Below, one piece after another: positions 1 to 64,000 of a stretch of DNA of 64,000 nucleotides; position 1 is the stretch's first letter, and every line of letters begins with the position of its first letter. Made by a program: the position numbers and the translations under genes. Below the pieces are notes generated by a model that ran no database searches, was not told where the DNA came from, and saw only the letters and a list, made by a program, of their open reading frames with translations. Source of the DNA: Pontibacter oryzae. GTDB taxonomy: Bacteria; Bacteroidota; Bacteroidia; Cytophagales; Hymenobacteraceae. The DNA is taken from positions 620,001-684,000 of the forward strand of contig NZ_QWGE01000003.1 of assembly GCF_003576375.1 (NCBI RefSeq), given 5' to 3'.

Positions 1-39
1 ATGCAAAATTAGACAAAGACCTGTAAAACTAAAATTAAG

Positions 40-1239
40 ATGCACACTGCTTATATAGTTGATATACTTAGAACACCGGTTGGCAAGTTTGGCGGCACCC
101 TGAGCACTGTTCGCCCCGACGACATGGCCGCTTTGGTGATGAAGGAAATCGTGGCCCGCAACTCCAACCTGGACCCTGCTATGATTGAGGACGTGGTGAT
201 GGGCGCTGCCAATCAGGCTGGTGAGGATAACCGCAACGTAGCGCGTATGGCGCTGCTGCTGGCAGGTCTGCCGCAGGAGATAGGCGGCGTAACCGTAAAC
301 CGGCTGTGCGCATCGGGTTTGCAGGCTATCATGGATGCCTCGCGGGCAATTAGCTGCGGCGACGGCGAAGTATACTTAGCCGGTGGCGTGGAAAGTATGA
401 CGCGCGCCCCGTTTGTGATGGCAAAATCAGAAACAGCCTTTGGCCGCACCGCCGAGATCTATGATACCACCATTGGCTGGCGCTTCACCAACCCTGCACT
501 ATCTAAGCTGCATTACCCGTTTGGCATGGGCGAAACGGCAGAGAATGTGGCTGAGCGATACGGCATTTCACGTGAAACTCAGGATGAGTTCGCACATCAG
601 TCGCAGGTGAAGTATAAGGCTGCTGCAGAGGCAGGTAAGTTCAGTGATGAGATCGTGCCGGTGCATATTCCGCAGCGCAAAGGCGAGGATATAGTGTTTG
701 ATACGGATGAGCACCCAAGGCTGTCGTCGGTGGAGAAGCTGGCAAGCCTGAGCCCGGCTTTTAAGAAGGGAGGCACGGTAACGGCTGGCAATGCATCCGG
801 CATAAACGACGGCGCAGCGGTATCCATTATCGTGAGCGAGGAAACCCTGAAGCGCTACAACCTGACGCCGATGGCGCGTGTGGTGGCTACCGCTATAGCC
901 GGCGTAGACCCTGCGCACATGGGCATCGGCCCGATACCAGCCACACAGAAAGCCTTGAAGCGTGCCGGCCTAAGTATAAACGACATCGGACTGGCCGAGA
1001 TAAACGAGGCATTCGCGGCCCAGGCCATTCCGTGCATCCAGCAGTTGGGTGTTAACCCGGACATCGTGAACGTAAACGGCGGCTCTATTGCCATCGGTCA
1101 CCCGCTAGGGGCCAGCGGCACGCGTATTTCGGCTACGCTGCTGCACGAGATGAAACGCCGCGATAACGTGAAGTATGGCCTGGCAACCATGTGTGTGGGT
1201 GTGGGCCAGGGCGCCGCCGTTATCTACGAGAAAGTATAA
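40..1239 (+). CDS. pcaF: 3-oxoadipyl-CoA/acetyl-CoA-type thiolase (PcaF/PaaJ-like)
   Basis: Thiolase of 399 residues, the usual length. It cleaves a 3-oxoacyl-CoA with CoA to acetyl-CoA and a shortened acyl-CoA in the cytoplasm. The nucleophilic Cys90 sits in NRLCASGLQAI, the catalytic His354 in GHPLGASG and the second Cys385 in CVGVGQG. The stretches ANQAGEDNRNVARMALLLAG and TTIGWRF are, from family knowledge, typical of 3-oxoadipyl-CoA thiolases of aromatic (phenylacetate or beta-ketoadipate) catabolism rather than of biosynthetic acetoacetyl-CoA thiolases. Substrate is therefore inferred, not proven. Start is the ATG at 40. The gene ends AAA-GTA-TAA, one copy of the AAGTATA word. No pathway partner is visible inside the window, and the upstream neighbour is outside it. 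Confidence 0.9.
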   Translation: MHTAYIVDILRTPVGKFGGTLSTVRPDDMAALVMKEIVARNSNLDPAMIEDVVMGAANQAGEDNRNVARMALLLAGLPQEIGGVTVNRLCASGLQAIMDASRAISCGDGEVYLAGGVESMTRAPFVMAKSETAFGRTAEIYDTTIGWRFTNPALSKLHYPFGMGETAENVAERYGISRETQDEFAHQSQVKYKAAAEAGKFSDEIVPVHIPQRKGEDIVFDTDEHPRLSSVEKLASLSPAFKKGGTVTAGNASGINDGAAVSIIVSEETLKRYNLTPMARVVATAIAGVDPAHMGIGPIPATQKALKRAGLSINDIGLAEINEAFAAQAIPCIQQLGVNPDIVNVNGGSIAIGHPLGASGTRISATLLHEMKRRDNVKYGLATMCVGVGQGAAVIYEKV

Positions 1240-1311
1240 GTTAAAGCCTGGCAGCGTGCGCACCCTTCCCGAAACGTTTTGGAGGAGGTATGCGTGCCTA
1301 AAGCAAGTATA

Positions 1312-1368
1312 AGTTTCGACTAAAAAGCGCCTGCTCATGTTCTAAGCAGGCGCTTTTTAGTTGAAACT
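1312..1368. terminator. Long hairpin terminator after thiolase gene
   Basis: Near-perfect inverted repeat: arms 1312-1335 and 1345-1368, with AAAAAGCGCCTGCT pairing with AGCAGGCGCTTTTT around a 9-nt loop. Runs of A on one side and T on the other let it work from either strand. It separates the thiolase gene from truA. Confidence 0.85.
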
Positions 1369-1408
1369 GTCGTGAGTCTTTTGCCCTTCTACTTTTGCGT
1401 CAAAATCA

Positions 1409-1416
1409 TACCTTTG
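1409..1416 (+). promoter_or_regulatory. Candidate -7 element of truA (possibly leaderless)
   Basis: TACCTTTG matches the Bacteroidota -7 consensus TAnnTTTG and ends four bases before the truA ATG at 1421. No TTG lies at the expected 19-21 bases upstream. If real, the transcript would start at or next to the start codon. Confidence 0.35.
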
Positions 1417-1420
1417 CTTT

Positions 1421-2173
1421 ATGCGGTATTTTTTAGAAATAGCTTACGACGGAACCCGGTTTCATGGGTGGCAGGTGCAGCCCAATGCAATTTCGGTGCA
1501 GGAAGTGTTGGACGATAGCCTGACGAAGATTCTGCGGGAGCCAATTAGCAGCACCGGCAGCGGCCGCACCGACACTGGCGTGCACGCCAGCCAGCAGTTC
1601 GTACACTTCGACAGCGCGCAGCACCTAGACCCGGAGCAAGTAATTTACCGCCTCAACCGCATCCTGCCCGACGATGTGTCTGCGATACAATTATACTTGG
1701 TGCAGGAAGATGCCCATGCACGTTTCCATGCCTTTGCCCGCACCTACCATTACTACATTACGCGCCGCAAAAACCCGTTTAGCCGCTACCATGCTTGGCA
1801 CCACAGCCGGCCCCTGGACGTTGAAAAAATGAACGAGGCCGCGGCCATACTGCTAAAGTATGAGGATTTTACTACCTTCAGCAAAGTAAAGGGCGATACA
1901 AAGCATTACCGCTGCGACATGTATGAGGCCGTTTGGCAACAGGAGGGCGAGGATCTGAAGTTCACGATACGGGCCAACCGCTTTTTAAGAGGCATGGTGC
2001 GCCTGATAGTAGGCGCGCTGGTCGACGTTGGCCGCGGTAAGCTAAGCGTAGAGGCCTTTGAGCAGATCATTGCCAGCCAGGACAGGAGCAAAGCCAGCGG
2101 GGCGGCTCCGGCAGAGGGCTTGTTTCTGGCAAAAGTAGAGTATCCCCCCGAGCTTTTTATACAGAAAAACTAA
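1421..2173 (+). CDS. truA: tRNA pseudouridine(38-40) synthase TruA
   Basis: Protein of 250 residues that isomerises uridines 38-40 in the anticodon arm of many tRNAs to pseudouridine. The catalytic Asp51 is in the signature GSGRTDTGVHA (residues 46-55). The N-terminal YDGTRFHGWQVQ and the central RANRFLRGMVR are also typical of the TruA family. Length fits the family. The ATG at 1421 is the first possible start and gives the standard N-terminus MRYFLEIAYDG. No Shine-Dalgarno sequence is seen, which is normal in this phylum. It stands alone between a terminator and the trans-sulfuration gene 25 bases downstream. Confidence 0.95.
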   Translation: MRYFLEIAYDGTRFHGWQVQPNAISVQEVLDDSLTKILREPISSTGSGRTDTGVHASQQFVHFDSAQHLDPEQVIYRLNRILPDDVSAIQLYLVQEDAHARFHAFARTYHYYITRRKNPFSRYHAWHHSRPLDVEKMNEAAAILLKYEDFTTFSKVKGDTKHYRCDMYEAVWQQEGEDLKFTIRANRFLRGMVRLIVGALVDVGRGKLSVEAFEQIIASQDRSKASGAAPAEGLFLAKVEYPPELFIQKN

Positions 2174-2198
2174 TCAACCTAACCCAAAACTAACCTAC

Positions 2199-3482
2199 AT
2201 GCAACTGGAAGAAGATCATCAGGGGCCGCACATCAATGGTAAACACCTGCGGCCCGAAAGCTTAATGATGAGCTATGGGTATAACCCGGAATGGTCTGAG
2301 ATGGCCGTTAAAGCTCCAATTTATCAAACCTCCACCTTTGTTTTTAAGAATGCCGAAGAGGGCAAAGCCTTTTTTGAGCTAGCCTATGGCCTGCGCGAGA
2401 AAAATGCCGAAGAGCAACTAGGCTTGATCTACAGCCGCCTGAACAACCCCGACCTGGAGATACTCGAGAACCGCCTTCGCTTCTGGGACGGTGCCGAGGA
2501 TGCAGCGGTCTTTGCCAGCGGCATGGCCGCCATCAGCACCACACTTTTGGCCCTGCTTAAGCCCGGCGACGTGATCCTGCACAGCGAGCCCATTTATGGC
2601 GGCTCGGACTACTACATCAAAAACATCCTACCTAAATTCGGCATCCAAAGTATAGGTTTTCAGGCAAGCGCCACAGCCGAGGAGGTTTCGCAGCTGCTGG
2701 ATGCCTCTGGCGTAGCCGATAAGCTGGCCATGGTATACGTGGAAACGCCTGCCAACCCAACCAACCATTTAGTGGATATTGAGGCTTGCGCCGCGCTGGC
2801 CAAAAAGCACTCTACCCCGGATAAGAAAGTAGTGGTTGCTGTAGACAATACCTTCTTAGGCCCGGTTTTCTCGCACCCACTCAAGCATGGAGCCGACTTG
2901 GTTCTATACTCTGCCACCAAGTACATCGGCGGCCACTCCGACCTGATAGCCGGGGCCTGCGCCGGCTCCGCCGATCTGATGAAGGCCGTGAAAGGCATGC
3001 GCACCTTTACAGGCTCTATGGCTAGCCCCTGGACCGGCTGGATGCTGATGCGAAGCCTAGAAACGCTGAAAATACGCATGGAAGCGCAAAGCCGTGGTGC
3101 CGAAACGGTAGCCGCATACCTAAAGGAGCATCCCAAAGTGGAGAAAATCTACTACCTCGGCGACCTGGCGCACAACCCGCACCAGCAGGCGATCTACGAA
3201 AAGCAGTGCAGCGCTGCCGGCTCCATGATTGCCTTCGACCTGAAAGGCGGCGAGGCAGAAGCGTTCCGTTTCCTGAACAGCCTGAAGCTGATAAAGCTGG
3301 CAGTAAGCCTAGGCGGAACAGAATCGCTGGCTGAGCACCCTGCCTCCATGACGCACTCCGATATTTGCCTGGCCGACCGCGCCAAAATGGGCATCGGCGA
3401 AGGGATGGTGCGCATCTCAGTAGGTATTGAGCACCCCGACGATATCATCTCTGACATAGAACAGGCGCTGACTAAAGTATAA
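2199..3482 (+). CDS. Cystathionine gamma-synthase/methionine gamma-lyase family PLP enzyme
   Basis: Protein of 427 residues of the Cys/Met-metabolism PLP fold. The PLP lysine is Lys241 in LYSATKYIGGHSDLIAG. The ring-stacking and phosphate-binding segments are seen at SGMAA (107-111) and YSRLNNP (78-84), and DNTF at 216-219 contributes the Asp to the pyridine nitrogen. The family includes synthases and lyases acting on cystathionine, homoserine esters or methionine, and sequence alone does not say which. It is about 30-40 residues longer than classical MetB, with extra sequence around residues 55-75 (GKAFFELAYGLREKNAEEQ). No SAM riboswitch or Met-pathway partner is visible nearby. The gene ends AAA-GTA-TAA. 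Confidence 0.85.
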   Translation: MQLEEDHQGPHINGKHLRPESLMMSYGYNPEWSEMAVKAPIYQTSTFVFKNAEEGKAFFELAYGLREKNAEEQLGLIYSRLNNPDLEILENRLRFWDGAEDAAVFASGMAAISTTLLALLKPGDVILHSEPIYGGSDYYIKNILPKFGIQSIGFQASATAEEVSQLLDASGVADKLAMVYVETPANPTNHLVDIEACAALAKKHSTPDKKVVVAVDNTFLGPVFSHPLKHGADLVLYSATKYIGGHSDLIAGACAGSADLMKAVKGMRTFTGSMASPWTGWMLMRSLETLKIRMEAQSRGAETVAAYLKEHPKVEKIYYLGDLAHNPHQQAIYEKQCSAAGSMIAFDLKGGEAEAFRFLNSLKLIKLAVSLGGTESLAEHPASMTHSDICLADRAKMGIGEGMVRISVGIEHPDDIISDIEQALTKV

Positions 3483-3523
3483 AAAGAGTTCTGAGCCTTG
3501 AGTGCTGAGTTACGAATTTACAG

Positions 3524-3560
3524 AGGCCGGTGCCATACGTTATGGTGCCGGCCTTTTTTT
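3524..3560 (+). terminator. Rho-independent terminator after PLP enzyme gene
   Basis: AGGCCGG and CCATA pair with TATGG and CCGGCCT around a CGT loop, with a 2-nt internal mismatch, and seven T follow. The rest of the 366-base gap (3561-3843) shows no ORF or RNA gene that I can support. Confidence 0.85.
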
Positions 3561-3843
3561 GTACATAATGCATTGCTGCCGCAAGTTTTTAAATCGTGGC
3601 TCTTTTTGAGGTAAGCTTTCAGCTTGCAGCAGGAAGATTTCTTAATTTTTGTTCTGGTCGTAGTCTCGGAAGTAGGGGCTAGGGCTGGTTAGATGGTTGT
3701 TACTGAAGTATAAATCCGGTTCGTCCCAAAATCCTGAAAATCCTGATCCGAAACCATTAACTTTGCAGCCGGTTAAGACTAAGCGCCCGTACAGAAGAAT
3801 CGCTGCGGCTTGCGCTTAAAATTTGCCCATGTAACCTGATTTA

Positions 3844-3851
3844 TACTTTTG
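3844..3851 (+). promoter_or_regulatory. Candidate -7 element at the start of the ABC exporter gene
   Basis: TACTTTTG fits TAnnTTTG but overlaps the only usable start codon (TTG at 3849). It also contains part of the recurrent TATACTT word. Either the element is fortuitous, or the mRNA starts inside the annotated gene and translation begins further in. Confidence 0.2.
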
Positions 3852-5618
3852 GAAGATAAACCTAAAAATAGCGGTAAGGTATTCGACTCTGATGTGCTGA
3901 AGCGGCTTTTCACGTTTGTGAAGCCCTACATCAAGATCTTCTACTTTATCATATTCCTGACCTTTGCCTCGGCCATACTTGCCGCGCTGCGCCCCTTCCT
4001 AATTCAGTACACCGTAGACCACGAGATCCTGAACAACGACTGGGAGGGCCTGAACCGCATGTTTGTGGTGCTGGGGGTGCTGCTGGTGGTGCATGCCATT
4101 GTGCAGTATCTGCATACTTATTTCGCCGGCTGGTTGGGGCAGCACGTGGTGCGCGACATCCGCATCAAGCTATACCGCCACATCCTTGACCTGCGCCTTA
4201 AGTTCTTCGACCGCACGCCAATCGGCACGCTGGTTACCCGGAATGTGTCCGATGTAGAAACGCTGTCTGATGTATTCAGCGAGGGGCTGGCCGCCATGAT
4301 CGGCGATGTGCTGCAGCTGGTGTTTATACTTGGCTTCATGTTTTACATTGATTGGGAACTGGCGCTAGTGAGCCTTTCCACGTTTCCGCTCATGATCATC
4401 AGCACGTACATCTTCAAGGAAAAGATCAAGCATACCTTTCAGGAGGTGCGCACGGCTGTTGCCCGGCTAAACTCTTTTGTGCAGGAACATATCACCGGCA
4501 TGAGCATCGTGCAGATCTTCAATAACGAGAAGCGCGAGATGGATAAGTTTCAGGAGATCAACAAAGAGCATACTCGCGCCAACATTCGGTCGGTACTGTA
4601 TTATTCGGTATACTTCCCGATCGCGGAGATTATCGGGGCGGCTGGCCTGGGCCTGCTGGTGTGGTATGGTGCCTATGGTGTAGTAGAGGACGAAACCTCA
4701 CTGGGTACACTGATGGCTTTTATCATGTACATTCAAATGTTCTTCCGCCCGATACGCCAGATAGCCGACCGCTTTAACACACTACAATTGGGCGTGGTAA
4801 GCACCGAGCGCCTGATGCGCCTGCTGGACAGCAAGGAAATGATTGCCGACAACGGCAGCTACGCCCCCGAAAAGATAAAAGGCAACGTGCGCTTCGAGAA
4901 TGTATGGTTTGCTTACCAAGACGAGGACTGGGTGCTGCGCGATATCTCTTTTGATGTGAAAGCAGGCGAGGCCGTGGCGTTTGTGGGCGCAACTGGTGCC
5001 GGCAAAACCTCTGTCATCAACCTCCTCAACCGCTTTTACGACATCAACAAAGGCCACATCATCATCGACGGGCACGATTTGCAGGACTATGACTTGAGCG
5101 TGCTGCGCCACCACATTGGCGTGGTGCTGCAGGATGTGTTCCTGTTCTCGGGAAGTATAGCCGATAACATTAGCCTGGGCAACAAGGCCATAACAGAGGA
5201 GCAGATGTGGCACGCCGCCGATCTGGTTGGCGCGCGCAAGTTTATTGAGCGCCTGCCCGGCGGTTTGCACTACCAGGTAATGGAGCGCGGTGCCACGCTA
5301 TCCGTGGGCCAGCGCCAGCTAATCTCCTTTGTGCGGGCCATGGTGTACAACCCCGAGATCATCATCCTGGATGAGGCCACCTCCAGCGTAGACTCCGAAA
5401 CCGAAGAACTGATACAATACGCCATAGACCAATTGATGCATGGCCGCACCTCCATCGTGATCGCGCACCGCCTCAGCACCATCCAAAAAGCCGATAAGAT
5501 CATTGTACTGGACCGTGGCGAGCTGAAGGAAATGGGCAACCACGAAGAGCTTTTGCGCCAGAATGGGTACTATGCACAGCTGCACCAGATGCAGTACAAG
5601 AACATGATTGATTTATGA
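3849..5618 (+). CDS. ABC half-exporter (TMD-NBD), subunit with LSVGQ signature
   Basis: Inner-membrane ABC exporter half of 589 residues: six transmembrane helices (about 28-300), then an ATPase domain. Walker A is GATGAGKTS (Lys386), Walker B IIILDEATSSVD with catalytic Glu509, and the H-loop is in IVIAHRLST. The ABC signature is LSVGQ (484-488) instead of LSGGQ. In heterodimeric exporters such as TM287/288, a modified signature in one subunit faces a defective Walker B in the other. The half-exporter at 7466-9250 has exactly that defect, so I infer a pair. The start is the TTG at 3849; an in-frame stop at 3831 excludes anything further upstream. Its stop overlaps the next gene by four bases (ATGA). 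Substrate is unknown. Confidence 0.88.
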   Translation: MEDKPKNSGKVFDSDVLKRLFTFVKPYIKIFYFIIFLTFASAILAALRPFLIQYTVDHEILNNDWEGLNRMFVVLGVLLVVHAIVQYLHTYFAGWLGQHVVRDIRIKLYRHILDLRLKFFDRTPIGTLVTRNVSDVETLSDVFSEGLAAMIGDVLQLVFILGFMFYIDWELALVSLSTFPLMIISTYIFKEKIKHTFQEVRTAVARLNSFVQEHITGMSIVQIFNNEKREMDKFQEINKEHTRANIRSVLYYSVYFPIAEIIGAAGLGLLVWYGAYGVVEDETSLGTLMAFIMYIQMFFRPIRQIADRFNTLQLGVVSTERLMRLLDSKEMIADNGSYAPEKIKGNVRFENVWFAYQDEDWVLRDISFDVKAGEAVAFVGATGAGKTSVINLLNRFYDINKGHIIIDGHDLQDYDLSVLRHHIGVVLQDVFLFSGSIADNISLGNKAITEEQMWHAADLVGARKFIERLPGGLHYQVMERGATLSVGQRQLISFVRAMVYNPEIIILDEATSSVDSETEELIQYAIDQLMHGRTSIVIAHRLSTIQKADKIIVLDRGELKEMGNHEELLRQNGYYAQLHQMQYKNMIDL

Positions 5619-6133
5619 AAAAGCTACTCTATGTAATGGCGGGCTTCGCCATCCTGCTCATGGTGTTTTACACATACATTGGCGGTTTCACAGAGCCAGA
5701 GGTAACCATGGCCACCTCCCAGGCCATGTATGTGGCCGGCGCACCCTTTGAGGGTTCTGTGGAGGATGAGGCCATGGGGCAGCTCTTTCAGCGGGCGGCT
5801 AAAGTGCTGGACCAAAAAGAGCTGGAAGGCATGCTGGGTAACATCTATTACAACGACCCCGACAAGAGCGGCGACAGCATCCGGGCATTTATCGGCATCA
5901 TCATCCCTGATTCTTCTGTGGTGCTGCCTTCCGGCTATACCTTGCGCACCGTGCCGGGTGGCCGCCGCGTTGTGCGTGCCGAGGTAAACGCCAGCGTGGC
6001 TATGTCGCCCCGCAAGCTCTACGCCGCCGTGTTTGATTATGCCGAAGAAGAAAAGTTGAAGCTGGAAGAGTTCTATGTAGAGTGGTTTCCGGCCGATGAT
6101 CAAGGCGTGCTGGAGGTGCCCGTTAAGCAGTAG
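5615..6133 (+). CDS. Membrane-anchored GyrI-like (effector-binding fold) protein
   Basis: 172 residues. Residues 4-24 form one hydrophobic N-terminal segment, a membrane anchor or uncleaved signal. The remainder resembles the GyrI-like small-molecule-binding domain found at the end of AraC/MerR regulators: GNIYYNDPDKSGDS (76-89) followed by a beta-strand FIGIIIP. No DNA-binding domain is present. The start codon overlaps the stop of the ABC exporter gene by four bases, so the two are translationally coupled and probably act together. A plausible role is sensing or handing over a hydrophobic ligand to the exporter at the membrane; this is inference. The family call rests on motif resemblance only. 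Confidence 0.6.
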   Translation: MKKLLYVMAGFAILLMVFYTYIGGFTEPEVTMATSQAMYVAGAPFEGSVEDEAMGQLFQRAAKVLDQKELEGMLGNIYYNDPDKSGDSIRAFIGIIIPDSSVVLPSGYTLRTVPGGRRVVRAEVNASVAMSPRKLYAAVFDYAEEEKLKLEEFYVEWFPADDQGVLEVPVKQ

Positions 6134-6141
6134 CGCCATAC

Positions 6142-6171
6142 TTGTAAGTATGGATTTATACTTTATCTTTG
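6142..6171 (+). promoter_or_regulatory. Bacteroidota-type promoter for the TetR gene
   Basis: TTG at 6142-6144, a 19-base spacer, then TATCTTTG at 6164-6171: an exact match to the sigma-ABfr consensus TTG-N19-TAnnTTTG. The predicted start is near 6178, about 60 bases before the TetR gene. The spacer contains AAGTATG and TATACTT. Confidence 0.7.
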
Positions 6172-6237
6172 GTGAGATAAAGGAAACCGCTGCAAACGCA
6201 CATTTCGGTTTCCGGTAACCACAGCAGCTATTGTATT

Positions 6238-6852: not shown

Positions 6853-6860
6853 ATACATAA

Positions 6861-6888
6861 TGGCTGAGCCGCCTAAACAGTTCAGCCA
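6861..6888. terminator. Short hairpin between convergent genes
   Basis: TGGCTGA (6861-6867) pairs with TCAGCCA (6882-6888) between the convergent TetR and XRE-type genes. No T-run follows, so the terminator role is tentative. Confidence 0.4.
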
Positions 6889-6908
6889 CTATAAGATAGA
6901 GTTTTATA

Positions 6909-15137: not shown

Positions 15138-15739
15138 TGCTGAAAGTAGGTATCACCGGTGGCATTGGCGTTGGCAAGACCATCGTGACGCGTATGTTTG
15201 CCATACTTAGCGTGCCTGTTTATGATGCAGACACACGTGCAAAATGGGTAATGCATCATAACCAGGCCCTGCGCCAGGAACTGGAGCAAGCCTACGGCCC
15301 GGATACCTTCACAAGCGAAGGCGAATTAAACCGGCCATACCTGGCAAGTGTGGTCTTTAACGACCCGCAACGCCTGGAGCAGCTCAACGCGCTAGTGCAC
15401 CCACACGTGCGCGATGATTTTGAAGCATGGGTAATGGCGCAAAAGAACGCGCCATATGTACTCAAGGAGGCAGCTTTGATGTATGAGTCTGAGGCCTGGA
15501 AGCAGATGGATGAGATCATTGCGGTTTACGCGCCCATGGAGGTGCGCCTGAAGCGGCTGCTGCAACGCGACACGCACCGCACAGAGGCAGATATCCGATC
15601 AATTATTGCCAAGCAACTGAGCGAAGAGGAGAAAATGCGCCGTGCGGAGCACATCATCTATAACGACGATGCGCGGCTGCTTATCCCGCAGGTGCTCAAA
15701 CTGCACAAGCAATTTCTGGGGCGCAAGCCTAAAGTATAA
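15137..15739 (+). CDS. coaE: Dephospho-CoA kinase CoaE
   Basis: 200 residues from the ATG at 15137. It phosphorylates dephospho-CoA with ATP, the last step of coenzyme A synthesis. The P-loop is GITGGIGVGKT (residues 5-15). The adenylate-kinase-like lid and substrate segments include YDADTRAKWVM, LVHPHVRDDF, and RLKRLLQRDTHRTEADI. The start overlaps the ybbR stop by one base. The gene ends AAA-GTA-TAA and is followed by a long non-coding stretch with the tRNA gene. Confidence 0.93.
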   Translation: MLKVGITGGIGVGKTIVTRMFAILSVPVYDADTRAKWVMHHNQALRQELEQAYGPDTFTSEGELNRPYLASVVFNDPQRLEQLNALVHPHVRDDFEAWVMAQKNAPYVLKEAALMYESEAWKQMDEIIAVYAPMEVRLKRLLQRDTHRTEADIRSIIAKQLSEEEKMRRAEHIIYNDDARLLIPQVLKLHKQFLGRKPKV

Positions 15740-15916: not shown

Positions 15917-15991
15917 TGGGGCGTACTGGATTCGAACCAGTGACCCCCTGCTTGTAAGGCAGGTGCTCTGAACCAGCTGAGCTAACACCCC
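15917..15991 (-). tRNA. tRNA-Val (anticodon UAC)
   Basis: 75-nt cloverleaf on the minus strand without encoded CCA. Acceptor GGGGTGT pairs with ACGCCCC (one G-U), discriminator A. The D arm contains TAGCTCAGCTGGTT, the anticodon stem CCTGC/GCAGG encloses CTTACAA with anticodon TAC, and the T arm has GGTTCGAATCC. All standard tRNA positions are present. Confidence 0.97.
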
Positions 15992-25796: not shown

Positions 25797-26732
25797 ATGC
25801 TGGAAGTAGTAAAGTATAGCGCAACGCATAAACTGAATTGGAATGCCTTTGTGCGGACATCAAAGAATGGCACCTTTTTGCTGCTGCGCGATTACATGGA
25901 GTATCATGCCGAACGCTTTACCGACCACTCGCTGCTGTTTTACCATAAGAGCAAGCTGGTTGCACTGCTGCCCGCAAATGAGGCGGAGGAGGGGATTGAG
26001 AGCCACGGCGGCCTGAGTTATGGCGGTTTTATCACGGATAAACGCATGAAGGCCGCGCTGATGCTGGAGGTTGTAAAAGCCATGAAAACATACTTTGCCG
26101 GGCTGGGTTTCCGAAGTATAAAGTATAAAGCCATCCCGCATATTTATCACCAGTTACCCGCCGAGGAAGACCTGTACGCCCTTTTCAGGCATGAAGCCAT
26201 ACTTTACAGAAGAGACGTAAACTCGGTAATAGCTATGGCTAACGCTTTGACTTATAGTAAAACCCGTAGGTGGGAGGTGCGCAAGGCCAGCAAAAGCGAA
26301 CTGCAGTTGCAATTAGCTACATCCTATGGGGCCTTTATGCAGCTGGAGCAGCAGGTGCTGCAGGAGCGCTATAACCTGGTGCCAGTGCATACGGCAGCCG
26401 AAATAGAACTGCTGGCGGCGCGCTTCCCGGAAAACATAAAGCTGTACACGGCAACTTTGGGTGATGAACTGCTTGCCGGCATACTCGTGTATGAAACAGC
26501 AACGGTAGCGCACTGCCAATACATGGGAGCCTCTGCAGAGGGCCGCAAGGCAAGTGCTTTAGACCTGTTGGTAGATTGGCTTCTACAAGAAGTATACTCC
26601 CACAAATCATACTTTAGCTTTGGTATTTCTACGGAGCAGGCCGGCAAGTATCTAAACGAAGGGTTGGTGTGGAACAAGGAAAGCTACGGCGCACGCGCTG
26701 TAATGCACGATTTTTACGAATTGAGGCTCTAG
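25797..26732 (+). CDS. GNAT/FemAB-like acyltransferase-fold protein
   Basis: 311 residues. The sequence looks like a double-GNAT (FemAB-type) protein: an N-terminal half with FVRTSKNGTFLLLRDYMEYH and LSYGGFITD, and a C-terminal half with LLAGILVYETATVAHCQYMGAS followed by ALDLLVDWLLQEVY and YFSFGISTEQAGKYLNEGL. Such proteins occur in Bacteroidota near polysaccharide genes and are annotated as GNAT acetyltransferases; the substrate is unknown. It stands alone here, closed by a strong terminator. Confidence 0.7.
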   Translation: MLEVVKYSATHKLNWNAFVRTSKNGTFLLLRDYMEYHAERFTDHSLLFYHKSKLVALLPANEAEEGIESHGGLSYGGFITDKRMKAALMLEVVKAMKTYFAGLGFRSIKYKAIPHIYHQLPAEEDLYALFRHEAILYRRDVNSVIAMANALTYSKTRRWEVRKASKSELQLQLATSYGAFMQLEQQVLQERYNLVPVHTAAEIELLAARFPENIKLYTATLGDELLAGILVYETATVAHCQYMGASAEGRKASALDLLVDWLLQEVYSHKSYFSFGISTEQAGKYLNEGLVWNKESYGARAVMHDFYELRL

Positions 26733-54680: not shown

Positions 54681-54690
54681 CTGAAAAGGG

Positions 54691-55400: not shown

Positions 55401-55452
55401 CAAGTATAAATATGTTAAAGCCGATCAACAATCAGCCACAAACAAGCAGCAA

Positions 55453-57083: not shown

Positions 57084-57125
57084 ATATAGAACCAGTTAAT
57101 CCCAGCAGAACAACAGCAGAAGGCC

Positions 57126-58337
57126 ATGAAAAAGTATACGATTTTTACCATAGCCCCCGCGCTCGCTTTACTGGCAGCTGGCTGTAGCAGCCCCACTGCA
57201 ATGCAATCGTCGGAGTACGACGATATGTATTACAGCTCAGCCGACCAGACCGTGTACGTAGAGCCGGAGGCACAATCCTCGGGGCGGGCTTACCAAACTT
57301 ATAACGATAACACCTCCGCTTACAGCAACGATCAGCTTGCCGAAGGAGAGGTGCTTAACCCGGAATACTCCGATAACTCTATCACTCAAAATTATAGCGG
57401 CGATGAGTATTACGATGGGCGCGATTATAACCCTCGCGATAACTGGTATCGGCCTGATTACTCTTTCGTAGATCCTTATTGGGGCGCAGCTTATGTGCCT
57501 CGCCGCGCAAGTTATGCCTTTTATGATCCTTTCTACGACCCGTTTTATTACGATCCTTTTTACTATGATCCTTTCTGGGGGCCATCGCGCTACAGAAGCG
57601 GCCTGACAGTAAGCATTAGCTACGGTGTAGGATGGGGCGGTGGTTTTTATGGCTATCCGCGTTACGGGTATAGTAACTGGTGGCCAAACAGCTATGGGCA
57701 CGGCTTTTATAATGGCTACTACAGAGGCTATGCTAATGGCTATTACGCCCATAACCCATATAATTGGTACCACGACAGACCCGTTGTTTTTGGCAAGGCT
57801 GCTAAAGTGCAGTATGGGCCACGCGACAGCCGCAGAACCTCTGTGGATAACAGCAGTGCCGCCGGGCGCCCAGATAGAGGCCGTGTAAACCGTGGTGAAA
57901 GCACGGGGCAGCAGCAAACAGAGGGAGTGGTCGGCCGCCAATCGCGCAGCAGCCGCAGTACAGTATCTCCGGCCAGAGGCACTGAGTCTGCTAAGCCCTC
58001 GTTGCCAAGCAGGCCAAGCCGCAATACTACGGTGCAGCCCCGTGAGCAAAATGTACAGCCACAGCCAGAAAACGCTAACCGCAGCCGCCGCACCCGTGAG
58101 TATACGCCAAGCCGTTCACCGGAGCAACGCGAAAGACCAGCACGCACTATTGAACGCCGACCGAGCCGCACGATAGAGAGCAGACCAAGCCGTACCATAG
58201 AAAGCCGGCCGAGCCGGACTTTTGAGAGCCGCCCAAGCAGCACGCCATCACGCACTGTTGAGCGCAGCAGCAGTTCATCGTCCTCTTCTTCGTCTGGGGA
58301 GAGTAGCGGGCGATCATCAAGAAGAGGAAACAATTAA
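57126..58337 (+). CDS. Low-complexity lipoprotein (Tyr/Gly-rich, then Arg/Ser-Pro repeats)
   Basis: 403 residues. Lipobox with Cys20 (LLAAGCSS). Residues 25-110 are Tyr/Asn/Asp-rich; 118-220 are Tyr/Gly/Trp-rich with near-repeats DPFYDPFYYDPFYYDPF and GYYRGYANGYYAHNPYN. The C-terminal 170 residues are basic and disordered, with four copies of a 9-residue unit RTIESRPS (about 342-375) and a poly-Ser run. No enzymatic domain is recognised. It may be a surface or periplasmic matrix-binding protein; the basic tail could bind polysaccharide or nucleic acid. It lies 25 bases upstream of the beta-barrel gene, probably the same operon. Confidence 0.75.
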   Translation: MKKYTIFTIAPALALLAAGCSSPTAMQSSEYDDMYYSSADQTVYVEPEAQSSGRAYQTYNDNTSAYSNDQLAEGEVLNPEYSDNSITQNYSGDEYYDGRDYNPRDNWYRPDYSFVDPYWGAAYVPRRASYAFYDPFYDPFYYDPFYYDPFWGPSRYRSGLTVSISYGVGWGGGFYGYPRYGYSNWWPNSYGHGFYNGYYRGYANGYYAHNPYNWYHDRPVVFGKAAKVQYGPRDSRRTSVDNSSAAGRPDRGRVNRGESTGQQQTEGVVGRQSRSSRSTVSPARGTESAKPSLPSRPSRNTTVQPREQNVQPQPENANRSRRTREYTPSRSPEQRERPARTIERRPSRTIESRPSRTIESRPSRTFESRPSSTPSRTVERSSSSSSSSSSGESSGRSSRRGNN

Positions 58338-58362
58338 TCTAGCATAAACTTCCTATAAGCAT

Positions 58363-60018
58363 ATGAAGAAGACACTTTTGGCCAGCCTGGCGCTTTTGCT
58401 GGGCTGGGGTGGTACTGCTTTTGCCCAAACCGAGGTAGACGCCCTGCGCTACTCTCAGACCGGGGTATCAGGTACTGCGCGCATTCAGGGTATGGGTGGC
58501 GCCCAAACAGCCCTCGGAGCAGATATTTCCAGCCTTTCCGGCAACCCTGCGGGTTTGGGCATGTTCCGCCGTTCTGAGTTTACTATTACGCCGGGCATCC
58601 AGTCTGCTAACTATAATAATTCAATAAGACTGTCAGACGGTTCCTCTGAACGTAGCACAGGTAGCAGCAGTAATTTTGTCTTCCCGCAGCTAGGTGTTGT
58701 CATATCCAACAGAAAAGGCGACAGCGATGGCAGCGATTGGCGCGGTACGACCTTCGGGATTGGCATAACCAGGCTCAATGATTTTAATGAGCGTTATACT
58801 TCCTATCGAACTAATACAAATATTAATGGGGAAATGTATCAGCAAAAGTATGGTCAGTATCTAGAAGCTATGAAAGCTTGGGAGGATAATAATTTTGAAG
58901 GGGCAATGCCGCTTATATCTGAGTTTGATCCTACGATAGTTGGATACTTTGCTGATTTAGCAGAGTATAATGCAAGGACAGAAGCTAGTTTGAATCAAGA
59001 ATACGATGATGGAATTACGTCGTTGGAAGGCTTAGCATACGGAAGCTTCTTGTTTGGGTATAATAATGATGGATATATTCTGCCTGAGTATAGAAATGGT
59101 CTAATAACACATCGCGAGGAAATTATCAGAAAAGGATCTCAGAACCAGATTGACATTGGAATAGGTTCCAGCTACAAGGACAAGCTATATATAGGCGCGT
59201 CGCTTGGCATCGTAACCGTGGATTTCTCGCAAGAAACCATTTACACAGAATCCGAAGGCGACCCAACCACACCCTTTGCCAGCTTAGAGTACAGAGATGA
59301 GTTTTCGACTACGGGTGCAGGTGTAAACCTTAAAGTGGGTATGATTGCCCGCCCGATAGATGCGCTTCGGTTAGGTGTGAGCGTACAAACCCCAACAGCT
59401 TATACATTTGACGACGATTACCAGCGCTCCATAATAACAACCTTTGATGATGGGATAGAGGGCGCAGCAGAAGTGCCCGGGCAATTTTCTTACCGTTTGG
59501 TAACTCCCTTTAAAGCAACGGGCGGCGTGGCTTATTTCATTGGTAAGTATGGCTTTATCACCGCCGATGTGGAGTATGTAGATTATGGCGACGCGAAGTT
59601 CCGCGAAGATGATGACTTCTCGTCTGGCGGTTTTTTTGATGACATCAACAACGGTATAGCAACAAACAACAGATCAGCAGTAAACTATAAATTAGGCGCT
59701 GAGGGTAGATATGATGTGTTTCGGTTGCGAGCAGGCTATGCATATAATGCCGAGCTTGATAACGGCTCCAGTTACAGAGATGGGTTCATTAACTACAAGT
59801 ACGGTGCCACCAAGCATTATACTTTAGGGGCTGGTGTAAGGCTGCAAAAATTTTATGTGGATGCTGCCTATGTGCACTCACAGCAGGATCAAGTATATGC
59901 GCCTTTCGTGAGCGGTACCAGCTACTCACCGTATACCTTTAAAACAACCGGGGAGCCTGCCGTGAACATCGATAAAAAACAGAATACAGTGCTTGTAACG
60001 CTGGGCTTTAACTTCTAA
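58363..60018 (+). CDS. Outer-membrane beta-barrel protein (OmpP1/FadL-like)
   Basis: 551 residues. Signal peptide 1-21 (TAFAQ). The N-terminus with GVSGTARIQGMGGAQTALGADISSLSGNPAGLG is typical of FadL/OmpP1-type or Bacteroidota aromatic-hydrocarbon-uptake barrels, and alternating beta-strands run to the C-terminal NTVLVTLGFNF. It is expected in the outer membrane as a channel for hydrophobic compounds, by analogy only. A segment of roughly 130 codons (58780-59190) is much richer in A+T than the rest of the gene and encodes a loop-like acidic stretch (see findings). Confidence 0.8.
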   Translation: MKKTLLASLALLLGWGGTAFAQTEVDALRYSQTGVSGTARIQGMGGAQTALGADISSLSGNPAGLGMFRRSEFTITPGIQSANYNNSIRLSDGSSERSTGSSSNFVFPQLGVVISNRKGDSDGSDWRGTTFGIGITRLNDFNERYTSYRTNTNINGEMYQQKYGQYLEAMKAWEDNNFEGAMPLISEFDPTIVGYFADLAEYNARTEASLNQEYDDGITSLEGLAYGSFLFGYNNDGYILPEYRNGLITHREEIIRKGSQNQIDIGIGSSYKDKLYIGASLGIVTVDFSQETIYTESEGDPTTPFASLEYRDEFSTTGAGVNLKVGMIARPIDALRLGVSVQTPTAYTFDDDYQRSIITTFDDGIEGAAEVPGQFSYRLVTPFKATGGVAYFIGKYGFITADVEYVDYGDAKFREDDDFSSGGFFDDINNGIATNNRSAVNYKLGAEGRYDVFRLRAGYAYNAELDNGSSYRDGFINYKYGATKHYTLGAGVRLQKFYVDAAYVHSQQDQVYAPFVSGTSYSPYTFKTTGEPAVNIDKKQNTVLVTLGFNF

Positions 60019-60030
60019 CGGCCCGAGTAT

Positions 60031-60076
60031 AAACCAAAAGCGGCAGTCCATTTACATGGGCTGTCGCTTTTGGTTT
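60031..60076 (+). terminator. Terminator of the beta-barrel gene
   Basis: AAACCAAAAGCG-CAG-CCAT pairs with ATGG-CTG-CGCTTTTGGTTT, two mismatches, 13 bases after the stop codon. Confidence 0.85.
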
Positions 60077-60242
60077 AAGCTTTGTGAGCCAGCGTTAAAG
60101 TATGAGCAGCTCTCCGGGTCATTCAATCAATTATCCATTCAAAACTATTCAAACCCCAGGTATGGTTTTGGATGTGCTATTATGGCGAAACCACATTATT
60201 CTTCTAACTTAGAGGAGCAAAAACTAAACTTCAACTAAAAAC

Positions 60243-62480
60243 ATGCATATCAGACTTAGATCAAACCTTTTGGCTGCCATGCTTCTGTGTTTTGCCTTTG
60301 TGGCGCAGGCGCAGCAGAAGAAAGATATAACCCTGGAGGATATCTACAAGAAAGGTACTTTCCGTAGCCAGTCGGTGTACGGCGTAAACTGGATGAACGA
60401 CGGCCGCTACTACAGCTCGCAGGTGCCGGATGCCACCAACAAAGTATACGACATCGTAAAGTATGATGTAACTACCGGCAAGCCCGTAGCCACCATCATC
60501 GAAGGCGAGAACCTGGTACCAACTGGCAGCAACCAGCCAATTCAGTACGACGATTATACCTTCTCTTCGGATGAGCAGAAGGTGCTTTTTTCTACCGATA
60601 CCGAGCAGATCTACCGCCGTTCTTCCAAGGCAGAGTTCTACATCTACGACATCGCCTCTAAAAAACTGACCAAGCTGAGCGACGGCGGCAAGCAACTGTA
60701 TGCCTCTTTCTCGCCGGATGCCAAGCGCGTTGCCTTTGCCCGTGGCAACAACATGTTCGTGACGGACCTGAGCAGCATGCAGGAAACGCAGATTACCACG
60801 GATGGCAAGTTCAACGCCATCATAAACGGGTATGCGGACTGGGTGTATGAGGAGGAGTTCTCTTTTGCCAAAGGCTTCCACTGGTCGCCGGATGGTAAAA
60901 AGATAGCTTTTTATACTTTTGATGAGGCCAACGTGCCAGAATTTAACATGCAGATGTGGGGCGAGCTGTATCCGCAGGATAACAAGTTTAAGTACCCGAA
61001 AGCCGGCGAGGCCAACTCTACAGTAAAAGTATCGGTGTATGACGTGAACAGCGGCAAAACCGTGAAAATGGATACCGGCAACGAGGCCGATATCTACATC
61101 CCGCGCATTAAGTGGACGAACGATGCCAACCTGCTGTCGATCCAGAAGATGAACCGCCTGCAGAACACATTGGAAATTCTGCACGCCAACGCTACCACCG
61201 GCAAAACCAGCGTGGTGCTGAAGGAAACCGACAAAGCCTACATCGACATCACCGACGACCTGACCTATCTGAAAGATGGCAAGTATTTTATCCACTCATC
61301 AGAAGTAAAAGGCTACAACCACCTGTACCTGTATAGCATGAACGGTAAGCTGGTGCGCCAGATCACGGATGGCAACTGGGAGGTAAGCGAGTACGTGGGC
61401 TACGACGAGAAGAACGACCGCCTGTACTACATGTCTACGGAGGTGTCGCCGCTGGAACGCCACTTGTACAGCATCAGCAGCAAAGGCAAAAAGAAGCAGC
61501 GCCTGACCGACAAGGAAGGAACGCACCACGTGAACATGAGCAACGACTTTACCTACTACTTGGACTATTATTCGGCTGCCAACCAGGTGCCTACCGTTAG
61601 CCTGCACACCGCCAAAGACGGAAAACTGATCAAGATGCTGGAGGATAACCAGAAGCTGCAGAACACACTGGCGCAGTATGACCTTGCCAAGCAGGAGTTC
61701 TTTACCATGAGCACTTCGGAAGGTAATAAGTTGAACGGCTGGATGATTAAGCCAACCGATTTTGACCCGAACAAGAAGTACCCGGTGCTGATGTTTGTGT
61801 ACGGTGGCCCGGGCTCGCAAACGGTAACCAACAGCTGGGGCGGAAGCAACTACCTATGGTACCAGGTGCTGGCCGACAAAGGCCTGATTGTGGTGAGCGT
61901 GGACAACCGCGGTACAGGTGCCCGTGGCGCAGACTTCAAGAAAGTGACCTACGCCAACCTGGGCAAGTATGAGATCGAGGATCAGATTGAGGCTGCCAAG
62001 TGGTTAGGTAACCAATCTTACGTAGATAAAAACCGCATCGGTATCTGGGGCCACAGCTTTGGCGGCTACATGACGCTGCTGGGCCTTACCAAAGGCGAGG
62101 GCGTGTTTAGAGCGGGTATCTCGGTGGCTCCGGTTACGAACTGGAGATTTTACGATACCATCTACACGGAGCGCTACCTGAAAACACCACAGGAAAATGC
62201 TGCAGGGTATGATGATAACTCCCCGCTGTTCTTTGCCGACAAACTGAAGGGCGAGCTGCTGCTCATCCACGGTACCGGCGATGATAACGTGCACTTCCAA
62301 AACGCAGTGGCCATGCAGGATGCCCTGATCGATGCCAACAAGCAGTTCGAGAGCTTTTACTACCCGAACCGTAACCACGGCATCTATGGAGGCAACACCT
62401 ACATGCACCGCTTCACCATGATGACTGACTTCCTGGAGCGCAACCTGATCAACCCGAAAGGGGAATCTGTGAACCAGTAA
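60243..62480 (+). CDS. Dipeptidyl-peptidase IV (S9B family)
   Basis: 745 residues. Signal peptide 1-23 (AQAQQ), then an eight-bladed beta-propeller (about 40-480) and an alpha/beta-hydrolase domain. The catalytic triad is Ser605 in GHSFGGYMT, Asp680 or Asp681 in GTGDDNVHFQ and His712 in NHGIYG; the substrate-binding Glu pair is in DWVYEEEF. The enzyme removes Xaa-Pro dipeptides from peptide N-termini, most likely in the periplasm, and may finish digestion of peptides released by secreted proteases such as the one at 28973-34135. Confidence 0.94.
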   Translation: MHIRLRSNLLAAMLLCFAFVAQAQQKKDITLEDIYKKGTFRSQSVYGVNWMNDGRYYSSQVPDATNKVYDIVKYDVTTGKPVATIIEGENLVPTGSNQPIQYDDYTFSSDEQKVLFSTDTEQIYRRSSKAEFYIYDIASKKLTKLSDGGKQLYASFSPDAKRVAFARGNNMFVTDLSSMQETQITTDGKFNAIINGYADWVYEEEFSFAKGFHWSPDGKKIAFYTFDEANVPEFNMQMWGELYPQDNKFKYPKAGEANSTVKVSVYDVNSGKTVKMDTGNEADIYIPRIKWTNDANLLSIQKMNRLQNTLEILHANATTGKTSVVLKETDKAYIDITDDLTYLKDGKYFIHSSEVKGYNHLYLYSMNGKLVRQITDGNWEVSEYVGYDEKNDRLYYMSTEVSPLERHLYSISSKGKKKQRLTDKEGTHHVNMSNDFTYYLDYYSAANQVPTVSLHTAKDGKLIKMLEDNQKLQNTLAQYDLAKQEFFTMSTSEGNKLNGWMIKPTDFDPNKKYPVLMFVYGGPGSQTVTNSWGGSNYLWYQVLADKGLIVVSVDNRGTGARGADFKKVTYANLGKYEIEDQIEAAKWLGNQSYVDKNRIGIWGHSFGGYMTLLGLTKGEGVFRAGISVAPVTNWRFYDTIYTERYLKTPQENAAGYDDNSPLFFADKLKGELLLIHGTGDDNVHFQNAVAMQDALIDANKQFESFYYPNRNHGIYGGNTYMHRFTMMTDFLERNLINPKGESVNQ

Positions 62481-62496
62481 GCATATCGTATAAACC

Positions 62497-62538
62497 AAAG
62501 TATAAAGGCCTGCCGGAAACGGTGGGCCTTTATACTTT
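62497..62538. terminator. Bidirectional terminator made from an inverted pair of AAGTATA words
   Basis: AAAGTATAAAGGCC (62497-62510) pairs perfectly with GGCCTTTATACTTT (62525-62538) around a CCG-GAAA-CGG apical hairpin, between convergent genes. The stem ends are exactly AAGTATA and TATACTT. Confidence 0.85.
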
Positions 62539-62554
62539 ACAAAGGATCTGAAAG

Positions 62555-63409
62555 CTACTGTTGCCTGCTTGCGCTGGAGATTAAAGTATAAAGCTGTTGT
62601 TTTTCTGCTTGCGTAAGAGGCAGGTTGGCGAGCTGTGCATACAAGGCATCTAGGGCGGCCGGGTGCTTGCAGGAATGCAGCGCAATCGTAAGTTGGCGCA
62701 TAAACGAGGCCATGGCATCGGACTGGCTGGTAAACCTGTTTAGTATTTGAAGCAGCAGGTTGGTAAGCTCGTTGTTGTTATGGTCGGGGTACCGCAGGCT
62801 GTGGTCTATCTCGCTCCAACCTTCCTCAAACAAGGTGCGCAGCTGTATCTCGGCAAAGTATCGCTGCCTGCCCGGTTGGGTCTCTATCACAAAGTGCACA
62901 GCCTTATATCCCGAAGGGTGCGGCATTATCTGGCAACCAAACCTCCCGAAAGTATGGGGCACTAGGTTGCTCTCGCTGCTAACCACATAGGCGTATGGCG
63001 GCCTTTTAAGCTGCCAATGCTTGTTTATGTAATGCCCGGTTTTTGCCCAGTGCCCCTTGTACAGGTGCAGTACCCGCATGCCTATCAGATCGTTAATCAG
63101 GTGCAGGTATGTATGGCGGTTAAAGTGGCGGTTTGGGTACTCCCGTTTCTTTCGGATGATCTTTTTGAGCAGGTGCTGTGGCTCTTTCACCCTGAATTTT
63201 ATACTATGCACATGGCTTGCTCCCTCCAGTATCCGGGAAATATAGATGGCTGTATCAGTGAGTTCGGCTTGCCTTTGTACATAGTCCTGGTAAATGGCCA
63301 GTAACTCGTGCGGGTTTATATGCAGTGCGCGCAGTTCCTGCTCACTTTTGTTAACAACGGAAAGTATGAATGATACAGTGGCGGTATGGGCAGGTTTGTG
63401 TTGGCGCAT
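62555..63409 (-). CDS. Stand-alone RelA/SpoT-domain protein (small alarmone synthetase-like)
   Basis: 284 residues. The nucleotidyltransferase core spans about 60-230: IKFRVKEPQHLLKKIIRKKRE (ATP-site R-x-K pattern), INDLIGMRVLHL (metal-binding Asp), PSGYKAVHFVIE and the catalytic Glu in YFAEIQLRTLFEEGWSEIDHSLRYP. No HD hydrolase, TGS or ACT domain is present, so it is neither a long Rel nor SpoT. A C-terminal helical tail (235-284) follows. It could make (p)ppGpp or a related alarmone, or be a toxic ToxSAS-type tRNA modifier; no antitoxin gene is adjacent. Confidence 0.85.
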   Translation of the reverse strand: MRQHKPAHTATVSFILSVVNKSEQELRALHINPHELLAIYQDYVQRQAELTDTAIYISRILEGASHVHSIKFRVKEPQHLLKKIIRKKREYPNRHFNRHTYLHLINDLIGMRVLHLYKGHWAKTGHYINKHWQLKRPPYAYVVSSESNLVPHTFGRFGCQIMPHPSGYKAVHFVIETQPGRQRYFAEIQLRTLFEEGWSEIDHSLRYPDHNNNELTNLLLQILNRFTSQSDAMASFMRQLTIALHSCKHPAALDALYAQLANLPLTQAEKQQLYTLISSASRQQ

Positions 63410-63492
63410 TACAAGAGGGGTTTAGTATGGCCCTCCTGTAAATTATAATCCGTTTTGGGTGGAAATGTTGCGTAAAGGCGTAACTAGCTGGG

Positions 63493-64000
63493 TTATAGCT
63501 TTACGCAAACGTTTTGCGGCTCGGTAAAGAAGCGCAGCGCCTCAAACCCTCCTTCGCGGCCCACGCCGGAGCTTTTCATGCCGCCAAAGGGTGTGCGGAG
63601 GTCGCGCAGCAGCCAGGTGTTCACCCAAACAATACCGCTGTGCACCTGGTGCGCCACGCGGTGGGCGCGCTGCAGGTTCTGTGTCCAGATGGTGGCGGAG
63701 AGGCCGTAATCGGTACAGTTGGCATAGCGAATCACTTCCTCTTCAGAGTCGAAGGGCGTGAGCGTAACCACTGGGCCAAATATTTCCTCGGTGTTGGTGC
63801 GGCAATCTGGTAGCAGGCCCTCTATAACGGTTGGCGCTATAAACCAGCCGTTGGCGCAGCGGCCCTCAACCTGCACCTGGTGCCCACCGGTAAGTATGAT
63901 GCCGCCTTCCTGTTTTGCGAGCGCAATATAAGAAAGGACTTTTTGCATGTGCTGCTCCGACACCACAGCGCCCTGTTTGGTTCCGTCCTCCAGGGGGTCG
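63493..64000 (-). CDS. 2-aminomuconate/2-hydroxymuconate semialdehyde dehydrogenase (C-terminal part)
   Basis: The last 168 or so residues of an aldehyde dehydrogenase; the gene continues beyond the right edge, and the frame is open to base 64000 (DPLEDGTKQGAVVSEQH). EEIFGPVVTLTPF contains the conserved Glu-Ile-Phe-Gly-Pro. NCTDYGLSATIWTQNLQRAH, GIVWVNTWLLRDLRTPFGGMKSSGVGREGG and NVCVKL at the end match the XylG/AmnC branch, which oxidises ring-cleavage semialdehydes in meta-cleavage or kynurenine (tryptophan) degradation. The nucleophilic Cys lies outside the window. Confidence 0.88.
   Translation of the reverse strand, partial: DPLEDGTKQGAVVSEQHMQKVLSYIALAKQEGGIILTGGHQVQVEGRCANGWFIAPTVIEGLLPDCRTNTEEIFGPVVTLTPFDSEEEVIRYANCTDYGLSATIWTQNLQRAHRVAHQVHSGIVWVNTWLLRDLRTPFGGMKSSGVGREGGFEALRFFTEPQNVCVKL

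Follow-up and report, generated by a model that had tools for sequence, protein, structure and literature searches.

Lineage-Specific Spellings of a Highly Iterated Short Word in Pontibacter and Its Possible Role as a Self-DNA Tag

Why is a word of seven letters written thousands of times into the genome of Pontibacter oryzae (Hymenobacteraceae, Bacteroidota), on both strands and through genes and spacers alike? The word is AAGTATA, with its complement TATACTT, and it was noticed in bases 620,001 to 684,000 of contig 3 (the window, 64 kb) of the 4.23-Mb genome G000. An earlier note on this DNA described the word as dense in both orientations and likened it either to uptake sequences, as in the DNA uptake sequence (DUS) of Neisseria and the uptake signal sequence (USS) of the Pasteurellaceae, or to the site of a nucleoid protein. 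Comparison across the genus places AAGTATA in a wider pattern: Pontibacter carries lineage-specific spellings, which follow phylogeny and reach thousands of copies per genome.

Abundance of AAGTATA in the Window and the Genome

The window contains 125 copies of AAGTATA, where Markov models of order 0, 1, 2, and 3 predict 7.3, 6.6, 11.2, and 22.4 copies, respectively. The G000 genome contains 6,705 copies (3,343 and 3,362 on the two strands), compared to 422 (213 and 209) of the reversed word, which bears out the described density on a larger scale than had been claimed. A synonymous-codon shuffle of the 53 open reading frames (ORFs) called in the window leaves 13.4 ± 3.3 copies (300 shuffles; maximum of 25), compared to 100 observed (z score of 26). 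The excess is thus neither within what such models predict nor confined to the window, the two outcomes that the earlier note had named as speaking against it. The maximal-order Markov model does not flag the 7-mer in the window and is uninformative for AAGTATA because the subwords already hold the excess (AAGTAT, 207 sites compared to 148.5 expected; AGTATA, 160 compared to 117.5). The 21 one-letter neighbors occur mostly at 0.6 to 3 times expectation, compared to 19 times for AAGTATA itself, which marks it as a sharply defined word. Above this range are AAGTATG (5.6 times; 62 sites in the window, a form rightly called frequent before) and AACTATA (3.95 times). The AGTATA/TATACT sites listed by eye for the first 9,500 bases are real, although their number is 23 instead of 21, those at 611 and 371 (the latter overlapping 369) having been missed.

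Dialects across the Genus

The strongest 7-mer of the MsbA region varies by species. Pooled over MsbA loci, AAGTATA (spelling A) is found 661 times compared to 49 expected (14 loci), AACTATA (spelling B) 268 times compared to 15 (4 loci), and AGGTATA (spelling C) 398 times compared to 37 (12 loci). The extended forms of B and C, AACTATAG and AGGTATAG, are found 146 and 239 times, compared to 2.6 and 7.5 expected. A wordless group of 9 MsbA loci shows no comparable word. Whole-genome counts on both strands of 50 Pontibacter genomes give 4,114 to 11,818 copies of AAGTATA in each of 17 A-type genomes, 5,748 to 9,303 copies of AGGTATA in each of 12 C-type genomes, and 12,524 to 13,168 copies of AACTATA in each of 4 B-type genomes; reversed control words reach about 230 to 1,100 per genome. 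Four genomes carry both A and B, with A and B counts of 7,552 and 8,118 in G027, 9,116 and 6,094 in G033, 5,110 and 11,674 in G065, and 10,614 and 3,531 in G071. Two genomes, G061 and G062, are called A from samples of 20 kb and 3.8 kb. A further type, D, is represented by G069 with the spelling ATATATRR (ATATATAA, 79 copies compared to 8.9 expected, and ATATATGG, 56 compared to 9.8, in 120 kb). GGGTATRR is found weakly in G036 and the A word weakly in G007. Eight of the 50 genomes lie near background (G002, G024, G025, G026, G028, G034, G064, and G068), with A at no more than about 2.5 times the control where counted; the calls for G064 and G068 rest on samples of 20 kb and 8 kb, not on genome-wide A counts.

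Aligned by eye, the spellings share the form NNN-TA-(T or G)-purine-purine. A T after TATA is avoided, being found at 6 of 125 A sites of the window, 7 of 268 B sites, and 9 of 398 C sites. The wordless genomes are larger (mean of 5.9 Mb, n = 8) than the word-bearing ones (4.6 Mb, n = 39; P = 1.4e-5), in a comparison of rounded sizes that excludes the three weak genomes and is uncorrected for phylogeny.

The AddB tree of 40 genomes places the C genomes on one side of a branch with support of 100/100, adjoining A-type G006 and A+B-type G071, and the B genomes together with G027, G033, and G065 in another group with 100/100. The A label and the wordless label need at least four changes each on this tree. 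In the MsbA tree, too, C is a clade (12 rows) and so is the B group (5 rows), each at 100/100. A is probably the ancestral spelling.

Conservation and Respelling of Sites

Conservation at word sites is roughly double that of other 7-mers. Across three species, 112 of 183 A words (61%), 93 of 168 C words (55%), and 40 of 100 B words (40%) are unchanged, compared to 28%, 29%, and 20% of random 7-mers, respectively. At some A sites, B species have the B spelling in the same position. When A sites are compared with their orthologs, AACTATA is the reading in 139 of 1,011 cases for B species, 1 of 2,712 for C species, and 13 of 4,764 for A species; 2,506 of these last 4,764 again read A. The comparisons pool overlapping species pairs and are not independent. 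In six single pairs of one A and one B species, 2 to 5 of 16 to 23 A sites are respelled as B. Gain of words by block replacement was considered and rejected: at sites where the word is missing in a close relative, differences of three or more letters are more frequent than at random 7-mers, in small samples in which wobble may explain the difference.

Words are scarce on three second replicons of A-type genomes, sampled in four 20-kb stretches. These contain 3 words (20 kb of 116 kb), 4 words (20 kb of 204 kb), and 11 + 1 words (40 kb of 74 kb), where genome means would predict about 25, 16, and 69. Genes for TraG, a relaxase, and ArdC lie on the last of these replicons. If the cause were purely mutational, the second replicons should be marked as well, unless they arrived recently.

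Placement in Genes and Spacers

The word overrides codon habits, as had been proposed. In the window, serine-isoleucine pairs are written AGT-ATA in 22 of 92 cases, spread over 18 genes, and both codons are sparingly used (AGT, 116 of 1,222 serine codons; ATA, 277 of 1,290 isoleucine codons). The examples that the earlier note gave within genes are real, with some coordinates a few bases off (14,673 where it had 14,680; 16,843 where it had 16,847). Four genes end in AAA-GTA-TAA exactly where it had placed them (Table 1), and the letters GCCATACTT of its GCC-ATA-CTT sites are found at 15,200, 37,246, and 45,747, in a comparison of letters alone.

With ORFs taken from a simple ORF caller, the six phases of strand and frame are used alike in the window (15, 17, 19, 14, 15, and 19 copies), and the word lies on the gene's own strand 51 times and on the opposite strand 48 times. 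Genes and spacers on both strands carry it, as stated before, with the spacers 2.7 times denser (4.62 per kb, compared to 1.70 per kb in ORFs). The window together with 20 further 20-kb stretches of G000 gives 264 copies on the gene's own strand and 282 on the opposite one, 1.40 per kb in ORFs and 3.19 per kb in spacers, and phases whose use differs up to 2-fold. Gaps between words are near random, save for a surplus of overlapping head-to-head pairs in the A and B dialects; in the same G000 set, head-to-head pairs less than 8 bases apart number 17, compared to 2.7 expected. A role in terminator stems, a hallmark of DUS and USS that the earlier note had reported for the window, has weak and mixed backing: inverted TATACTT...AAGTATA pairs 25 to 59 bases apart are above expectation in the G000 stretches (23 compared to 12.2) but below it in other A-type loci (6 compared to 14.7), and inverted pairs number 8 compared to 8.6 in B loci and 6 compared to 6.5 in C loci.

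The words lie on both strands without replication polarity, a point that the earlier note had proposed to check. The complete genome G031 (B dialect; replichores derived from GC skew) has 678 words on the skew-favored strand compared to 614 (P = 0.08), and G000 without the window has 351 compared to 310 by strand (P = 0.12). The ratio of 82:43 in the window (P = 0.0006) is local, as none of the 20 other G000 stretches reaches a P value of 0.05. One of 20 stretches of G031, L148, is strongly one-sided (53:22); 95% of its genes lie on one strand, and the window has no such gene-strand bias. Two low-GC stretches, possibly islands, are poor in words: L090 of G000 (G000:C1:500001-520000; GC of 0.40, 0.5 per kb) and L147 of G031 (G031:C1:710001-730000; GC of 0.42, 1.3 per kb).

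Words in Other Genera

Outside Pontibacter, AAGTATA stands at 0.9 to 2.5 times the control in 45 genomes from five further genera of its family, the comparison suggested in the earlier note, and at 0.4 to 1.8 times in 22 genomes drawn from other families within the order. Individual genomes in sister genera show words of their own. ACCTAGGG is found 43 times compared to 1.4 expected in 80 kb of G074 and 35 times compared to 0.7 in 40 kb of G083, GGGTAGGG 65 times compared to 3.6 in 80 kb of G112, and the palindrome CCCTAGGG, whose places are each counted on both strands, 28 times compared to 0.8 in 20 kb of G116. No such word is found in 60 kb each of G087, G084, G073, and G081, and surveys of 18 and 19 stretches of other genera (two and one dropped), with one sample each, were mostly without a word. 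The top 7-mer of 30 loci of other bacteria has a z score of 4 to 12, compared to about 9 to 40 in word-bearing Pontibacter loci. Searches of the open-license literature turned up no description of such a word for Pontibacter or its family.

Possible further words occur in genus g26, namely AGGGCCCC (21 compared to 1.9; L217, G114) and the palindrome GGCTAGCC (20 compared to 3.5; L212, G096), in 20 kb each. ATTCGTAA of Brumimicrobium salinarum (L072; 17 compared to 1.0 expected in 17.8 kb) is perhaps another iterated word of the phylum. The words found in Rufibacter and in genus g23 (CCCCTAAACG and AAAACGCTA) were rejected as dialects, since they resemble terminator tails or families of small repeats. 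They and CGCATGCG are longer words repeated a few times, which may be terminators or small repeats (L164, L241, and L242 of G072; L046 of Rufibacter immobilis).

Candidate Machinery

The family of the pilus ATPases PilB, PilT, and GspE (PF00437) yields only fragments in the 50 genomes, with scores of 18.8 to 25.9 bits over at best about 60 of 370 positions; the cutoff of 24.9 bits is narrowly passed by 3 of the 50, and the pilins themselves were not searched. ComEC (PF03772) has a match in all 50 genomes. With no pilus ATPase beyond fragments and ComEC throughout, a reader of the word would sit in pilus-free machinery like that of Riemerella. Transformation of Riemerella anatipestifer is reported to need a DUF5689 surface protein, an outer membrane protein, an HhH protein, a DUF1343 protein, ComEC, DprA, ComF, and RecA, and pilus genes do not feature in the hits of that screen (PMC8459023). 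The phylum as a whole is not pilus-free, because a pilus-like system is described for some Bacteroidota (PMC6668835).

An AddB-like protein likewise has a match in all 50 genomes, the wordless ones included. Residue 61 (numbering of G031; L244 to L283) varies among R, C, T, and Q, although the N-terminal region around it is conserved. Of the A rows, 10 of 12 have R; all 10 C rows have T, and all 4 B rows have C. The exceptions are A-type G006 with T, A-type G030 with C, and wordless G024 with R. The N-terminal stretch SPEVSGMEDFITRLAKT is common to A+B-type G071 and C-type G003 and G016, and the stretch of D-type G069 is the same as in wordless G025 and G064. The region is common across dialects, with residue 61 partly tracking clades. 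The Chi pocket is placed by eye alignment with what we take to be its position in B. subtilis AddB.

Of four adenine methylase families, none has strong matches throughout the word-bearing genomes. PF01555 has a match in 31 of 50 genomes, but not in G000 or any of the four B-type genomes, and PF02086 has one in 13 of 50. Of the 50 genomes, 47 have a PF07669 match of weak or better score, 24 have one that reaches 90 bits, and A-type G022 has none. PF02384 is found in 50 of 50 but, among the matches listed, scores 22 to 23 bits in A-type G006 and G061, like the window's own PrmC-like gene. In G061, no match to these four families exceeds 41 bits.

Possible Functions of the Word

A word that is chromosome-wide, kept in place, respelled by lineage, missing on several branches, and scarce on second replicons matches the prediction of preferential incorporation of kin DNA. 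The leading interpretation, to which we give a little less than an even chance, is that the word is a tag of self-DNA, favored when DNA of kin is taken up or incorporated, like the Neisseriaceae DUS with its dialects. Uptake or incorporation of DNA from kin would be the driver, and the reader would be a receptor at the surface or in the periplasm that passes DNA to ComEC, as in Riemerella, which is transformed without a pilus. The spellings would share a TA core and be read by one protein family; a change in the reader would switch the dialect and lead to the respelling of sites, with the two-dialect species as a halfway stage. A more tentative proposal, possible but clearly the less secure of the two, is that Pontibacter and, in other spellings, certain genomes of its sister genera use the first dialected code for self-DNA uptake in the Bacteroidota, with a surface receptor of pilus-free machinery. 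The receptor's specificity for the letters before the TA core would have been rewritten several times within the one genus, each change respelling thousands of chromosomal sites, and loss of the code would go with larger genomes. The nucleoid and Chi-like readings considered below rank next after the self-DNA tag.

Several points weigh against the self-DNA tag. In the six single pairs, 12 to 21 of the 16 to 23 A sites have neither of the two spellings in the B species. The word-poor second replicons could be mere recent arrivals. Even spacing of the words was looked for and is not seen, the gaps being near random, and USS are more evenly spaced. The local strand runs of the window and L148 do not follow from it. 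Judging by the PF00437 fragments, a type IV minor pilin does not seem to be available as a reader, and no Riemerella-like receptor pair is found in the loci scanned by a rough signature, a scan that was not genome-wide and in which the barrels belong either to TonB receptors or to a DUF5686 protein. The comEC genes of word-bearing G022 (G022:C1:2771217) and G009 (G009:C76:160505) contain an in-frame stop, which could be decay or sequence error, and the wordless genomes retain a ComEC match. No uptake experiment in Pontibacter is found in the literature. The uptake reading of the earlier note is uncontradicted by the sequence tests and gains strength from the dialects, from the sites respelled in place, and from the scarcity of words on second replicons, but with a Neisseria-type pilin reader apparently unavailable, membership in the DUS is not claimed.

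The other reading in that note, a nucleoid-protein site, keeps some weight, though we consider it unlikely. An abundant DNA-binding protein that organizes the nucleoid or chromosome would need thousands of sites, and its specificity could drift between lineages; words on both strands, spacers two to four times denser than ORFs, near-random spacing, and the surplus in A and B of overlapping pairs set head to head suit such a protein. Its difficulties are that 8 of 50 genomes manage without the word, that second replicons are poor in it, and that selection must be effective at each of about 10,000 sites. A smaller likelihood attaches to a Chi-like signal for AddAB, by which broken or incoming DNA would be degraded unless the word is present, so that word-bearing DNA would be recombined in. 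Chi sites are short, nonpalindromic, and overrepresented. The Pontibacter word is alike in these respects, an AddB-like protein is universal in the set, and residue 61 goes partly by dialect, but the leading-strand bias is not found in G031 or G000, wordless genomes carry AddB too, and the AddB region does not follow dialect, with residue 61 or the stretches breaking ranks in G006, G030, G024, G071, and G069. FtsK-orienting polar sequences (KOPS) were rejected as the same two genomes do not show strong replichore strand polarity.

A word linked to methylation, created or kept by the lineage's DNA methylase and linked repair, is improbable. Its model is the cyanobacterial highly iterated palindrome HIP1, which is replaced in some relatives by another iterated word (the alternate HIPs) together with the methylase (PMC4390886). 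The broad presence of PF02384 and of at least weak PF07669 matches fits this explanation, but all four families are patchy or weak in word-bearing genomes, none goes with the A, B, and C words, and the ATATATAA form is without cytosine. HIP words are palindromic and tied to methylases (PMC4390886), whereas AAGTATA, AACTATAG, and AGGTATAG are nonpalindromic, that of G116 being palindromic. A mutational or codon-usage artefact is very improbable. Denser spacers are what an unconstrained process would give, and nothing more specific was found for it; the use of all six phases, the z score in the codon shuffle, the near-background neighbors, the doubled conservation, and the poor second replicons all argue against it.

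Comparison with Known Systems

The Neisseriaceae DUS has dialects that differ by single letters around a fixed CTG core, with two dialects in S. muelleri and relatives without any (PMC3630211). Pontibacter is alike in its short word of thousands of copies, in spellings that follow phylogeny and lie one or few letters apart, in a kept core (TA by eye alignment), in two-dialect genomes (G027, G033, G065, and G071), and in wordless relatives. The two differ in that the DUS has 10 to 12 letters and acts in uptake, compared to a denser (about 1 to 3 per kb) putative tag of 7 to 8 letters in Pontibacter. The DUS receptor is the type IV minor pilin ComP, a reader of a kind for which no pilus ATPase was found in Pontibacter. 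The USS of the Pasteurellaceae is likewise an iterated word on both strands and differs as a longer motif of another phylum with pilus-based uptake. Closer by descent is Riemerella columbina, which prefers its own DNA in competition and for which only A/T-rich runs are given as putative DUS k-mers (PMC7965970). It shares with Pontibacter the phylum, an own-DNA preference, and pilus-free transformation, the last two as putative traits of Pontibacter, and it differs in that no word of the Pontibacter type is reported for it (PMC7965970).

If the self-DNA tag is correct, a dialected word of equal scale without a pilus ATPase found would mean that self-DNA tagging arose separately from that of the Neisseriaceae. 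About forty sequenced species with several dialects, two-dialect intermediates, and losses would then make the driver and the respelling of whole chromosomes testable, and the word could supply the missing signal behind own-DNA preference in a member of the phylum.

Features of the Window

Table 1. Positions of the word and of other features in the window, counted from its first base
Feature	Position	Strand	Remark
AAGTATA/TATACTT field	1..64000	both	125 sites (82 forward, 43 reverse)
Overlapping inverted pair AAGTATACTT	368..377		Head-to-head arrangement of the kind in excess
Gene-end word AAA-GTA-TAA	1231..1239	+	
Gene-end word AAA-GTA-TAA	3474..3482	+	
MsbA-like gene	3,849-5,618		Protein at most 94% identical to named Pontibacter species; nearest in tree P. 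anaerobius, 86% DNA identity
GCCATACTT, AAGTATG form within gene	15200..15208	+	
Gene-end word AAA-GTA-TAA	15731..15739	+	
tRNA gene	15917-15991	-	
Tandem pair of words, AAGTATAAAGTATA	26114..26127	+	
Protein of 1,720 residues	28973-34135	-	
Gene-end word AAA-GTA-TAA	46630..46638	+	
Protein with PorV-family match	58363-60018	+	

The tRNA gene is the sole Rfam match in the window. The protein of 1,720 residues carries a type IX sorting tail, which suggests type IX secretion in G000, and the PorV-family match, which lies below its cutoff, points to the same system.

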